Positions 2,564-36,211 of a stretch of DNA of 49,335 nucleotides are shown here, piece by piece. The notes below the pieces were generated by a model. That model ran no database searches, had not been told where the DNA came from, and saw nothing but the letters and a program-made list of their open reading frames with translations. Positions within the stretch are counted from its first letter, which is position 1. Every line of letters starts with the position of its first letter. Source of the stretch: Leptolyngbya sp. DLM2.Bin15 (lineage in GTDB: Bacteria; Cyanobacteriota; Cyanobacteriia; RECH01). The stretch is taken from the NCBI GenBank assembly GCA_007694125.1, contig RECH01000250.1, positions 1-49,335 on the forward strand, read 5' to 3'. The translations under genes were made by a program, and so were the position numbers.

Positions 2564-3982
2564 TCAATCCTCGCCAGCCAAGAGGGTTCGCAGGGTCAAC
2601 ACCTGCGGCGGGGTTGAATCTGGAGGATAGAGGAAGCTCACCTCCACAGAGCGGCGATCGCCCGGGGGCAGGGTCAGGGTCACCAAGGGTTCACTTTGAT
2701 CGCCCCGCCGCTGCACCAGGTGGAAAAAGCGCGATTGGGGACGCCCATCGTCATCGACATAGCTGACCTGTACGGTGCCGCGAAAGAAGGTCTGGGTGGG
2801 CAAGGGATCAAAAAAGCGCAGCCCATCTTGAGTAAGCACGTCTTCTTTGATCGGCGTTTGCAGGCTTAAGGTGACGGTTTGGGCCACCGCCGATGGGTTA
2901 TGGAGCGGCATGAACAGGTTGTACTGAATGCCATAGTTGCCGTGGGCCTGGTAGGCCGTATCGGGATAGCGCACCAGCATCGGCGCAGTCTGCACTTGCC
3001 CTGTTCCCAAGCGTCCTGCCACCAAGGTACTCAGCCCATAGGACACCGCCTCGCCTGGCTCAGGAATCGTCAGGTTGGCGCTCTCCGGCGTATCAGACAC
3101 AAAGGCATCCCATTGGGAGCCCTGGGCCACCCCCGCCACTCGTCCGTAGATGATCTGTCCTGGGGCACCCAGCGGCGTGGGGGGGCGATCGCGTCCACCG
3201 GCCAAGTCGCCCGTTTCCAGCAGCGCCACCCAGTCCTCTAGGGAAGGTGCTTGCTCCTGCACCCTGGGCATCTCGGCATCTGGGTCACCCATCTGATCCG
3301 CATCCGCATCCGTCTCAACCAGCACATCGGCATAGTGGGCCAGACTCGCTAGATAAATCGGCTGATCACTCCTGAGCCGCATCAGGGTCGATCGCCCGTT
3401 CAGCGGTGGATCTAGTTCAGCCACGGGAATCGGTTCATTCAACAACAGGCGATATTGCCCTGGCGGAATGGTCACCTGTGCCGGAAACCGCTCCTCCTGC
3501 CGTCGATTGCGCAGCACATCAGACATCACCCGACTGCCTGGCCCCGCAAACACATCCCCCCGAGCATTGTCCTCTAGGGGCGGCAGGGGAAAGAAGGGGG
3601 CATCGGGCTGACTTAGATAACTAGCTCCGTGCAGAATGCTGATGGTGGCGTCGTCGTCGCCAGGGTTATAGGCCACAATGCCGATATACAGGCTAGTGAG
3701 ATCCTCTGGATCAACCGCCCGATAGACATGGTGGGCAAAAATATCGAAGCGTCCCTGAAAGGCAAAGTCGAGATGGGCGCTGGGATCGGCCATGCCCATG
3801 GGAGGAAAGGTGGAGAGCAAAATACCCTCCATTTGTACGAGTTCTGGACTGTTGCTGTTGAATACCGGCACAGAGTCGAGTTGCCCCGGCAGCGATCGCA
3901 CCGATTGGGGCACCACAATCTCTTGGGGCTCGGGGGGAGCCGGTAGGTCAGCTAGCGTGAGAGTCGAGAGCAACATCCACAT
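2564..3982 (-). CDS. DUF3370 family secreted protein
   Basis: A 472-aa protein that matches the cyanobacterial DUF3370 family as I remember it: after a short hydrophobic N-terminus (MWMLLSTLTLA) comes the family opening with EIVVPQSVRSLPG, then PVFNSNSPELVQ and FQGRFDIFAHHVYR. The rest is beta-rich, with many aspartates and prolines and no transmembrane helix. It is probably exported, although the signal segment is short. The family has no established biochemical role to my knowledge. The start overlaps the 3' end of the upstream pyroglutamyl-peptidase-like gene by 35 bases on the same strand, which suggests translational coupling or that the two are co-transcribed. No other in-frame start is convincing. 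Confidence 0.85.
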   Translation of the reverse strand: MWMLLSTLTLADLPAPPEPQEIVVPQSVRSLPGQLDSVPVFNSNSPELVQMEGILLSTFPPMGMADPSAHLDFAFQGRFDIFAHHVYRAVDPEDLTSLYIGIVAYNPGDDDATISILHGASYLSQPDAPFFPLPPLEDNARGDVFAGPGSRVMSDVLRNRRQEERFPAQVTIPPGQYRLLLNEPIPVAELDPPLNGRSTLMRLRSDQPIYLASLAHYADVLVETDADADQMGDPDAEMPRVQEQAPSLEDWVALLETGDLAGGRDRPPTPLGAPGQIIYGRVAGVAQGSQWDAFVSDTPESANLTIPEPGEAVSYGLSTLVAGRLGTGQVQTAPMLVRYPDTAYQAHGNYGIQYNLFMPLHNPSAVAQTVTLSLQTPIKEDVLTQDGLRFFDPLPTQTFFRGTVQVSYVDDDGRPQSRFFHLVQRRGDQSEPLVTLTLPPGDRRSVEVSFLYPPDSTPPQVLTLRTLLAGED

Positions 3983-8286: not shown

Positions 8287-9519
8287 ATGGGCACATTGAC
8301 TCGACAACTTGGGATTTATCTCATTCTCCTGGCGGCTGGAGGGGGTGCAGGCTGGGCCGGCAACCAATACCTCAGCGCTAGGCAAGCAACCCTGAATCCA
8401 AGCCTACAAGAGACCTCAGAGGCTGAGTTCATCACACCGCTCGTCGCCCGTCCTGAGCCCAGTGACTCCATCAGTCCCTCGATTGCTGCTGTCAACAACA
8501 ATCCCAATTTCATTGCCGATGCCGTGGAAAAAGTTGGGCCGGCCGTTGTGCGCATCAATGCCTCTCGTCGCGTTGCATCCGGCATTCCTGATGGCTTCCC
8601 CAACCCCCTGCGCCGCTTCTTTGAAGACGACTCCCTACGCTTGCCCGAAGAGCGCATTCAAGAGGGGACTGGCTCCGGATTTATCTTGAGCGCTGATGGG
8701 CAAGTGATTACCAATGCCCACGTCGTTGAAGGAGCCGATACCGTTGACGTCACGCTCAAGGATGGACGCACCTTTCAGGGTGAAGTCCTGGGTGCCGATT
8801 CAGTCACCGATATTGCTGTGATCAAGATTGATGCCGTTGAGTTGCCCACCGTCACCTTGGGCAACTCAGAAACCCTGATTCCAGGACAATGGGCGATCGC
8901 CATTGGTAACCCCCTAGGATTAGACAACACCGTTACCGCCGGCATCATCAGCGCCACCGGACGCTCCAGCTCTCAAATTGGCATTCCCGATAAGCGGGTA
9001 CGATTCATTCAAACCGATGCGGCTATCAATCCAGGCAATTCTGGCGGCCCCTTGCTCAACGATCGCGGCGAAGTGATTGGCATCAACACAGCTATCCGCG
9101 CCAATGCCCAAGGTCTTGGGTTTGCGATTCCAATTGAAACAGCTCTAAGAGTTGCCCAACAGTTGGTGGAAACGGGTCGGGTTGAACATCCCTTCTTGGG
9201 CATTCAGATGGTTGATCTAGACGCCAACACCAAGACTCAGTTGTCCAACGATCCAACGATCCAGCTCGACGACGATCTAGACGCAGGCGTCGTGATCATC
9301 AAGGTGATGCCAAACACCCCTGCAGATAATGCCGGACTGCGGACTGGAGATGTCATTCTCAGCATGAATGACGTACCTGTAAGCACCGCCGCTGACGTGC
9401 AGGCCCAGGTTGAGATCAGTGGCGTTAACAACACTATTGACATGGATATCAACCGCAATGGCGAGCTGGAAACCATTTCAGTACGCACCGGCACCATGCC
9501 CGATCGCAGGATTAACTAG
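8287..9519 (+). CDS. HtrA/Deg-type trypsin-like serine protease
   Basis: A 410-aa protease of the cyanobacterial HhoA/HhoB/HtrA group. Residues 5-25 form an uncleaved signal anchor or signal peptide. The catalytic triad is His145 (TNAHVVEG), Asp175 (VTDIAVIK) and Ser252 (GNSGGPLL). A single PDZ domain covers about residues 300-405, with GVVIIKV and AGLRTGDVIL. These enzymes degrade or refold damaged proteins in periplasm or thylakoid lumen. Length and one PDZ fit the family. Which of the three paralogues it is cannot be told from sequence alone. The gene stands alone between a divergent peptidase and a convergent DUF4079 gene. Confidence 0.93.
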   Translation: MGTLTRQLGIYLILLAAGGGAGWAGNQYLSARQATLNPSLQETSEAEFITPLVARPEPSDSISPSIAAVNNNPNFIADAVEKVGPAVVRINASRRVASGIPDGFPNPLRRFFEDDSLRLPEERIQEGTGSGFILSADGQVITNAHVVEGADTVDVTLKDGRTFQGEVLGADSVTDIAVIKIDAVELPTVTLGNSETLIPGQWAIAIGNPLGLDNTVTAGIISATGRSSSQIGIPDKRVRFIQTDAAINPGNSGGPLLNDRGEVIGINTAIRANAQGLGFAIPIETALRVAQQLVETGRVEHPFLGIQMVDLDANTKTQLSNDPTIQLDDDLDAGVVIIKVMPNTPADNAGLRTGDVILSMNDVPVSTAADVQAQVEISGVNNTIDMDINRNGELETISVRTGTMPDRRIN

Positions 9520-34231: not shown

Positions 34232-35944
34232 CTAACTGGGTGCGAGATAAGACCAAAACTGGGGACGCAGGGTTTGTCGTTTGGTGTTGGTAGCACAGTG
34301 GACATTGCCATGATTGGCTTGGTAGGGACTGTCGTCTACAAACTCAACCCGAATTCTAGCCTGGGCTAAGCGCTGGCGAATCATCCATTGAACATAGTCT
34401 TCGCCGTTCACCAGCGGCGCGTGGGGATCGCCAAGAATCAGCGTGCCGTTGACAAACACCGAGTTCACCGAATTCGACCAGAGCGTAGAAGCATTACGCA
34501 GCCCCGTAAACACTACCGGCAAGCGAATAATTCGATCCTCATCAATCTTCAGGTCTTGCTTCACCATACGGATGATGCGATCGAGCACCGAGCGCTGCAT
34601 CCGGGAGCTGATCGAACTATAGGTTTGGAGCGCTTCGTTGACGGTGATCGGCGGCTCCCCAATCCATTCCTCCCCTGCCCCCTGGGATCGCAGATCCTGC
34701 AATAGTTTAATCCCGGCTTCCATATCGTGAACCAGCACATAGGGCTGCCCCTCCGGAGCCGGAACGAAGCTGATCAGCTCATCCACATGCTTAATCAGCA
34801 GCCAAGAGGTGTCAAACCACAGGGGCGTTTGCACCCCCTGCCGTCTTAGGAAATCCACGATCATCGGGTGCATCTCAACCCCGGTTTTGGTGTTGCGCCC
34901 ATAGTACGATCGCCCTAGGGGAAACCCTTTAATCGGCGGCGTCACTTCTAGATTGCCAAACCAGTCAGCTAGCTCATCCGCCACATTTAGATTACGCGGC
35001 TCACCCACGGTGATATAGCCAACATTGGGGCCCAGCAAGGTCTTGGGATATTGCTCATCCTCTCGATTGGCGCGCAATACCACATGCATCCCCGGATGCC
35101 CTGGTATTTCCTGGTAGCCAATTTCCATCATGTCCTGGGTCCACATGTCCTGCCAGTTGTCGCTTTCATACTCATGCAGGGTTACCCCCAAGGGTGGCAG
35201 AATGCGCTCTAGCTGCGATCGCATTTGGTCATTGTCGTAGTAGCCCACACCGATATAAAGATCCGTGGTGCGGGCAGAATTGGGCAGCATCAGCCAGGGG
35301 GCCACCCGCATGGCGATCGCATCGGTGGCGATCGCTCGTCGTTTTTCATCCTGCAGGCGCACCGTTAGACGCGCTACCCCAGGCCAATTGGTTTGGGCAA
35401 ATTGCTTAGCCTCAAGTCCCAGGGTCAACACTATGGGCTCCTCCAACCGGGCCGCCCCAGGCGGAAGTGTTAAGGGCACCGGACGACTGAGATCCAGGAA
35501 CTGCCACTGATCGCCCACCCGCTGGAAGAGGTTGACGGCCAGACGCGATTCCAAATTCACATCCACAAACAGCTCCGAGGAGGGCGATAGTTGCTCAGGC
35601 GCGAGGGTGATGGTGGCGATCGCTAAATCCTGTTCATCCGCCGGGCCGTTCACCACCGTATCCGCCGCATCAGCGAGGCCGTTGCCGTCATCATCATCCA
35701 CATTCGCCAACAGCAACATCCCAGCCGTCCACGACCATGTGTGGCGATCGCGGAGATCATCCCTAGACAGTCTGCCATCACGATTGGTATCGCCCATCAC
35801 CACCAAGGGAGTATCTGGGCGAACAAGGCGCGCACTCAACGGACTCCAAACCCAGGTATGCAGCAGAACCATCAGCATTACCAACATGCCGATCACACCA
35901 ATCATGCGCACCCAGGGTCTTCGCCTTCGTCTTCGTCGCTGCAT
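34232..35944 (-). CDS. protein-arginine deiminase (PAD) family protein
   Basis: A 570-aa homologue of animal peptidylarginine deiminases, which turn protein arginine into citrulline with calcium. The N-terminus has seven arginines then one membrane helix (about 14-33), so the enzyme is likely anchored and faces outwards. Calcium-type acidic loops follow: DTNRDGRLSRDD (52-63) and NVDDDDGNGLADAAD (81-95). The PAD middle domain ends in MRVAPWLMLPN (212-222), close to the animal RVAPWIMTPN. The C-terminal catalytic domain has all four active-site residues: Asp271 (WTQDMMEIGY), His386 and Asp388 (KHVDELISFVP) and Cys550 (HGNVHCATNTKR), plus FGNLEVTPP. Cyanobacterial PADs have been described as related to the source of the animal genes. 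No substrate is evident from neighbours. Confidence 0.93.
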   Translation of the reverse strand: MQRRRRRRRPWVRMIGVIGMLVMLMVLLHTWVWSPLSARLVRPDTPLVVMGDTNRDGRLSRDDLRDRHTWSWTAGMLLLANVDDDDGNGLADAADTVVNGPADEQDLAIATITLAPEQLSPSSELFVDVNLESRLAVNLFQRVGDQWQFLDLSRPVPLTLPPGAARLEEPIVLTLGLEAKQFAQTNWPGVARLTVRLQDEKRRAIATDAIAMRVAPWLMLPNSARTTDLYIGVGYYDNDQMRSQLERILPPLGVTLHEYESDNWQDMWTQDMMEIGYQEIPGHPGMHVVLRANREDEQYPKTLLGPNVGYITVGEPRNLNVADELADWFGNLEVTPPIKGFPLGRSYYGRNTKTGVEMHPMIVDFLRRQGVQTPLWFDTSWLLIKHVDELISFVPAPEGQPYVLVHDMEAGIKLLQDLRSQGAGEEWIGEPPITVNEALQTYSSISSRMQRSVLDRIIRMVKQDLKIDEDRIIRLPVVFTGLRNASTLWSNSVNSVFVNGTLILGDPHAPLVNGEDYVQWMIRQRLAQARIRVEFVDDSPYQANHGNVHCATNTKRQTLRPQFWSYLAPS

Positions 35945-36211
35945 CTCAATCCTTATATCCAGACCTTAGCATCGCCAAGCCAACTCCCTATGATGGTTTG
36001 CCATACTCATCAAAATCCATAGCAGGCTAAGCTAAACAACAGAAGCACTCACCTAGTGCCCAACCGTCGCAGTATAAACGGAGATTTAGAGCATTGCCAC
36101 TACATCTAGTGATCCCTAAGGGATAATGGCATAGATAACACTCTACCGTCCTCTCCTGATTGGCCTATCTAAAAACCCTTCATCCACGGGCTCATCCTAG
36201 CCCACAGAACG
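35945..36211. other. divergent promoter region
   Basis: 267 bases between the PAD gene (minus) and a hydrolase (plus). No repeat, hairpin or RNA was recognised. Confidence 0.4.

Follow-up and report, generated by a model that had tools for sequence, protein, structure and literature searches.

A predicted membrane-anchored peptidyl-arginine deiminase of Leptolyngbya on a bacterial branch separate from the animal-type enzymes

Does a cyanobacterium make a complete protein-arginine deiminase (PAD) of the kind found in animals, and, if so, on which side of its membrane would the enzyme work? The question is raised by one gene of Leptolyngbya sp. DLM2.Bin15, lying in a 49,335-nt stretch of DNA that was analysed as a whole (the window, in what follows). 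The original prediction for this gene was a membrane-anchored PAD with a complete active site, facing away from the cytosol.

Gene, fold and active site

The gene is one complete minus-strand open reading frame (ORF) of 570 amino acids that exactly fills 34232..35944, with its ATG at 35944 and its stop at 34232; all features of the gene given below are on the same strand. A Shine-Dalgarno-like AAGGA lies 5 bases before the ATG (35950..35954 in plus-strand coordinates). The gene is single-copy in the genome, and counterparts are found in both sampled congeners and in the one sampled family member of this organism. Purifying selection is clear, with dN/dS of 0.19 and 0.14 against the two congeners.

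The protein is a genuine PAD of the family of the human PADI enzymes. PAD (PF03068) is the sole Pfam family over threshold, with E 8.5e-64 for a catalytic domain at residues 205-564 (34253..35332), and the match is full length (profile positions 2-394 of 395, score 216 for a cut-off of 25); no NCBIfam model matches at E 0.01. A phmmer search of the PDB aligns residues 35-566 with chain residues 106-664 of human PADI4 (E 2.9e-55), followed by PADI3, PADI1, PADI2 and the inactive PADI6. The AlphaFold2 model, generated from a 41-row alignment of the Leptolyngbya PAD and fetched loci, has a mean pLDDT of 91.4; the 50 best Foldseek matches to it in the PDB are all human PADIs, and VIA-align places it on PADI4 with a Z of 42.1 and an rmsd of 2.0 over 500 residues. 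Residues 41-568 of the model superpose on PADI4 80/112-663 as a two-domain fold, the middle (M) domain occupying approximately residues 45-214 (35303..35812, from this structural alignment) ahead of the catalytic (C) domain. The likeness to animal PADIs over both domains, for which a structure prediction had been proposed as the check, is thus confirmed far above chance by the Pfam and PDB E-values and by a fold Z of 42.

The active site is complete, as had been claimed, and all four of the motifs quoted for it are found: RVAPWLMLPN at residues 213-222, WTQDMMEIGY at 268-277, HVDELISFVP at 386-395 and HGNVHCATN at 545-553. Asp271 (35132..35134), His386 (34787..34789), Asp388 (34781..34783) and Cys550 (34295..34297), the nucleophile and the protein's only cysteine, align with D351 (D350 of PADI4), H471, D473 and C647 of PADI2. 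The two congeners, the family member and locus L044 likewise have all four residues. A catalytic core of this type is common to the guanidino-modifying superfamily, and a deiminase acting on small molecules (free arginine, agmatine) instead of proteins might share it. We regard such an activity as highly improbable: both PAD domains are present, Pfam searched to E 1 returns PAD and no agmatine or arginine deiminase family, and the structures that match best are those of PADIs, including histone-peptide complexes. The suggested phylogenetic check agrees, in that the protein does not group with agmatine deiminases.

Calcium ligands, N-terminus and cysteine content

The Leptolyngbya PAD keeps the Ca1 ligands (Q270, E274, E333) and, by alignment, the entire Ca3-5 loop (N81, D83, D85, D92, D95, D103 and D106; 35627..35704), together with E178. 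An EF-hand- or dockerin-like loop, D52-N54-D56, stands at the PADI2 Ca6 position (35756..35791; seen in the alignment and as a sub-threshold EF-hand_5 match at residues 52-65, E 0.13 in Pfam), with Ser where PADI2 has E131. Acidic loops of calcium type had been placed ahead of the middle domain; the loops are present, at 52-63 and 81-106 (aligning with PADI2 123-131 and 154-180), and they lie inside the middle domain instead. The ligands of the Ca2 site are missing, E352, D370 and S371 being replaced by M272, R291 and A292. The Ca4 "switch", D389 of PADI2, is N307 (35024-35026) and is Asp in both congeners (L034, L035); calcium control may thus be weakened in DLM2.Bin15. PMC8826395 names D125, E131, D389 and some regions of PADI2; the remaining ligand numbers follow the usual assignment.

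Relatives were labelled animal-type or no-Ca2. Because E352 and S371 also defined these labels, the split in Ca2 ligands is one of definition; a tree built without the labels yields the same split. The Ca3-5 ligands are widely kept across the no-Ca2 PADs, with N154 in 71, D156 in 69, D166 in 70 and E253 in 71 of 74 (PADI2 numbering). D389 is confined to the animal-type clade on the actinobacterial and fungal samples of PMC8826395, as far as the accessible part of that paper goes. As a mark of the animal type it fails here, being Asp in 53/74 no-Ca2 PADs and in 20/27 animal-type PADs, a count that depends on the alignment; it is the Ca2 ligands, not D389, that separate the two.

About 45 residues precede the M domain, comprising in the model an Arg stretch, a helix and a low-confidence linker; a PAD_N domain is absent (Pfam searched to E 1). 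Seven consecutive Arg, R3-R9 (35918..35938), lie on what would be the positive-inside side of a predicted membrane helix, a putative signal anchor, at residues 11-32 (35849..35914). It is the lone helix of this region in the AlphaFold2 model, with a low-confidence stretch, 31-43, behind it, and the hydrophobicity agrees: the mean KD is 2.26 over the 19 residues starting from open-frame residue 21, which is protein residue 14. The Arg-rich start and the single helix are therefore as originally described, and on these predicted features a location outside the cytosol is likely. RRPWVR was considered as a candidate Tat-type export signal.

Were the helix inverted, the enzyme would face the cytosol from the inner side of the membrane and would modify cytosolic proteins in the manner of animal PADs. 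These reside mainly in the cytosol or nucleus, and the lack of an obvious cleavage site and the shortness of the N-terminus are compatible with such an orientation. The positive-inside rule, applied to the seven Arg ahead of the helix, speaks against it, as do the N-terminal signals of relatives, which are either lipoboxes or of Sec type with what looks like a cleavage site, and the intact cyanobacterial members, which are entirely without spare cysteines; we hold a cytosol-facing enzyme to be quite unlikely.

The extracytosolic placement that we prefer has its counterpart among the relatives. A home-made hydrophobicity rule for export (a net positive n-region, then 10 uncharged residues of mean KD >=2.2, near an in-frame start) is positive in 52/69 readable no-Ca2 PADs and in 0/27 animal-type PADs; the Fisher p of 1.3e-12 for this contrast is overstated, since the compared sequences are related. 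The Leptolyngbya PAD stands outside both the 69 and the 74, and the N-terminus of five further no-Ca2 loci, also outside the 69, could not be read. To the eye, several of the 17/69 that fail, such as L100, L101, L106 and L122, have what resembles a signal peptide, and six of the export-positive no-Ca2 PADs have a lipobox. Among cyanobacterial no-Ca2 loci besides the Leptolyngbya PAD, 21 of the 24 readable ones are positive; L039, L047 and L053 are negative. An earlier form of the rule (15 residues, KD 1.9), applied with duplicates included, gave 46/76 and 0/29. We thus note a sharp dichotomy, new to us, within the compared set: no-Ca2 PADs usually carry a predicted N-terminal export signal and animal-type PADs never do. 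Exported or periplasmic cyanobacterial PADs were not found in the literature searched (subscription papers and preprints being outside its scope). The main text of PMC8826395 does not mention the terms transmembrane, signal peptide, secreted or periplasm, and the accessible part of PMC3482391 makes no mention of deiminase; in none of the searchable papers is a location described for the PADs on this branch.

The number of cysteines in the M and C domains provides a check that is independent of the N-terminus. No cysteine besides the nucleophile occurs in any of the 13 catalytically intact cyanobacterial no-Ca2 PADs, the Leptolyngbya enzyme included; among those that have lost the nucleophile, 11/13 have none at all and 2/13 have one, whereas cyanobacterial animal-type PADs have 2-8 spare cysteines in 24/24. 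Since no-Ca2 PADs from outside the cyanobacteria do carry spare cysteines (mean 2.5, range 0-10), the argument is limited to cyanobacteria; and the 13 are not 13 independent events, because they are closely related, forming two sets in the tree, that of the Leptolyngbya PAD and a Geitlerinema/Microcoleus set. The 24 other long ORFs of the window have 1.04 Cys per 100 amino acids, a rate from which 5.9 would be expected in 570 amino acids, and the PAD has one. Two further long ORFs of the window, 2564-3982 (-) and 8287-9519 (+), are cysteine-free, the latter beginning with a hydrophobic, membrane-helix-like stretch. We read the loss of spare cysteines as a probable adaptation to an oxidising compartment, and the Leptolyngbya PAD as a putative signal-anchored, calcium-loaded deiminase facing such a compartment.

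Relatives, tree and loss of the catalytic cysteine

A PAD match is found in 26/388 sampled genomes of the class: 12 with bit scores of 491-535, 12 (DLM2.Bin15 included) with 186-242, and two, G161 and G349, in pieces. One of the G161 loci, L025:1-3129 (-), is a PAD (E 7.2e-54, PAD_M included) that has a ubiquitin carboxyl-terminal hydrolase domain (PF00443, E 4.4e-16) joined to its C-terminus, a domain pairing that looks eukaryote-directed; L026 and L027 (from G349 and G161) are divergent PAD-like ORFs of 946-955 amino acids with insertions within the catalytic domain. The animal-type PAD of G038 (L002/L045) is broken by an in-frame TGA and is a pseudogene or an assembly error.

A scan of genome contigs by the single protein yielded 15 stretches, none of them a relative. 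The alignment-based scan gave at least 485 relatives among at least 578 pattern stretches; the best 80 of these, which were kept, come from cyanobacteria, Planctomycetota, Myxococcota, Aminicenantes, Sumerlaeota, Bdellovibrionota, Actinomycetota and others. The 40 pattern matches in viral contigs include no relative. The alignment left out L001 (the window itself) and the broken L045, took the longer loci L034-L045 in place of L002-L006 and L018-L024 from the same places, and never contained L025-L030. Duplicates (L046, L069, L089, L109) were excluded from counts, and fragments (L048, L079, L086, L114, L120) additionally from the cysteine count.

The midpoint-rooted tree has 82 rows, 26 of the 108 aligned rows having been omitted as duplicates, fragments or near copies. 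A 100/99 branch sets apart the 21 rows with Ca2 ligands, human PADI2 and PADI4 included. The Leptolyngbya PAD sits in a 38-row set (100/99) without animal-type or actinobacterial PADs and, within it, in a four-member set (100/99) with a congener, the family member and L044. A cyanobacterial lineage has been proposed as the source of the animal PADI genes (PMC8826395, accessible part), and the original prediction had related the present gene to it. That link does not stand: the 100/99 branch separates them, and PAD_N and the Ca2-site ligands are absent. The proposed source must thus be another cyanobacterial clade, and the clade of the source type has three domains, a Ca2 site and no export signal. 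The Leptolyngbya PAD is a variant of a known family, on a separate bacterial branch, and predicted to be exported. Animal-type PADs, by their Ca2 ligands, also occur outside cyanobacteria, in Paenibacillus (L104), Bowmanella (L123) and a Campylobacteraceae MAG (L114); L104 and L123 branch beside the animal plus cyanobacterial set, and L114 is outside the tree.

Both congeners keep the neighbours of the PAD gene, a gatA-like amidase and alpha/beta hydrolases. An alpha/beta hydrolase is the only match on the 7.8-kb contig of the family member, gatA and a hydrolase are matched in Microcoleus (L047), and none of the tested neighbours is matched in L044, L037, L039 or L043. An all-against-all comparison of flanking ORFs from 87 sources gave no recurrent partner distinguishable from GC-rich shadow ORFs or common regulators. 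The neighbours are unremarkable genes, retained chiefly by close relatives, and no conserved one hints at a substrate. Two-component system genes flank the PAD gene L031:3629-5614 on a linear Streptomyces plasmid (NZ_CP108735.1).

On a sister branch, 14 cyanobacterial loci (L040-L043, L048-L053, L055-L058) have Asp or Ser at the position of the nucleophilic Cys: Asp in eight, from Trichodesmium, Okeania, Hydrocoleum and a Microcoleaceae MAG, and Ser in six, from four genomes of one family, Kamptonema and an Oscillatoriaceae MAG. Several also lack the active-site His or Asp. Most keep the calcium ligands; L041 and L042 have lost most of those of Ca3-5. Because the Oscillatoriaceae MAG locus, L053, pairs in the tree with the catalytically intact L047, more than one loss of the Cys is likely. 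These exported-type proteins are candidate secreted pseudoenzymes, parallel to the inactive PADI6, and their loss of catalytic residues indicates that the PAD fold can be retained for a role other than catalysis. The Leptolyngbya protein might, by extension, be an exported binder, its PAD fold serving as a surface module for arginine peptides or calcium and its catalysis incidental or weak; the 14 loci, with fold and mostly calcium ligands retained, and the D389->N replacement in DLM2.Bin15 lend this some support. Weighed against it, the tetrad is intact in this protein and in its congeners, family member and L044, and the catalytic losses fall on another branch; we judge a binding role unlikely.

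Mode of action and comparison with known systems

As a whole, the Leptolyngbya protein is probably best explained as a membrane-held, extracytosolic, calcium-dependent peptidyl-arginine deiminase. The analysis establishes the protein's family and active site, its predicted fold and ligand residues, purifying selection and the lack of spare cysteines; its location, calcium use and activity are inferred as follows. The single N-terminal signal-anchor helix would hold the enzyme in the membrane with the Arg-rich end inside and the enzyme domain beyond the cytosol, in either the periplasm or the thylakoid lumen. Ambient calcium, bound at the Ca1 site and in the Ca3-5 loop, would assemble the active cleft, in which Cys550, with Asp271, His386 and Asp388, would convert Arg side chains to citrulline and ammonia. 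Envelope or passing proteins would thereby lose positive charge; the cell's own envelope proteins are our first guess at targets, and arginine-rich peptides from outside are possible ones. We propose that a Ca2 site and PAD_N, which the cytosolic animal-type enzymes have, are absent because the cell does not hold external calcium at a low level, and that every spare cysteine is gone because the compartment is oxidising.

PMC9174705, in its accessible part, describes the role of bacterial and fungal PADs as completely unknown; the export and cysteine pattern points the search to the envelope, the lumen or the medium, not the cytosol. Beyond the single enzyme, it is possible, though we advance it only tentatively, that there is a third widespread class of bacterial PAD acting outside the cytosol, without PAD_N or a Ca2 site and, in cyanobacteria, with the nucleophile as sole cysteine. 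On this view, citrullination outside the cytosol would be its older use in bacteria, and the animal enzymes would descend from a lineage in which export was lost and PAD_N and a further calcium site were acquired, a safety catch suited to the low-calcium cytosol. The export and cysteine pattern would in this way also account for the additional calcium control seen in animal-type enzymes, and the cyanobacterial PADs whose only cysteine is the nucleophile, with their natural Asp and Ser relatives, make the idea testable. For the exported no-Ca2 grouping proposed here, the Leptolyngbya PAD has an N-terminal helix, no Ca2 ligands and no spare cysteine.

With human PADI1-4 (3b1t, 1wd9, 4n2b, 5hp5, 7dan) the Leptolyngbya PAD shares the M and C domains, the catalytic tetrad, the Ca1 and Ca3-5 ligands and the fold (Z ~36-42); it differs in lacking PAD_N and the Ca2 ligands, in the D389->N switch, in its predicted membrane helix, and in having one cysteine where the human enzymes have 13-15 in M+C. 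The animal-type PADI of Cyanothece sp. 8801 (clade Ai) is reported to be active and calcium-dependent (PMC8826395, accessible part). Family, catalytic residues and the RVAPW.M.PN linker are common to clade Ai and the Leptolyngbya PAD; the latter belongs to another clade, is two-domain, carries a predicted export helix (0/27 among animal-type PADs) and has no Ca2 site. Actinobacterial and fungal two-domain PADs resemble it in the absence of PAD_N and of the Ca2 ligands (PMC8826395 and PMC9174705, accessible parts), and those of Streptomyces look exported by eye, as it does. The actinobacterial and fungal linker has a His triplet at PADI2 300-302 (THHH in L032, L108, L122 and L124), where the Leptolyngbya PAD has LPN within its animal-like RVAPWLMLPN, and the actinobacterial PADs lie on the opposite side of a 100/99 branch from it. 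The PAD of the filamentous cyanobacterium CCP2 (L046, identical in sequence to L044) is 49% identical and has the same N-terminal helix layout, with Gly at the switch position, unlike Asn307. The Porphyromonas enzyme PPAD is likewise bacterial and exported, and it citrullinates proteins. It is of an extended agmatine-deiminase type without PAD_M (PMC8826395 and PMC9174705, accessible parts); unlike PPAD, the Leptolyngbya PAD has, in the model, a fold of the PAD_M type.
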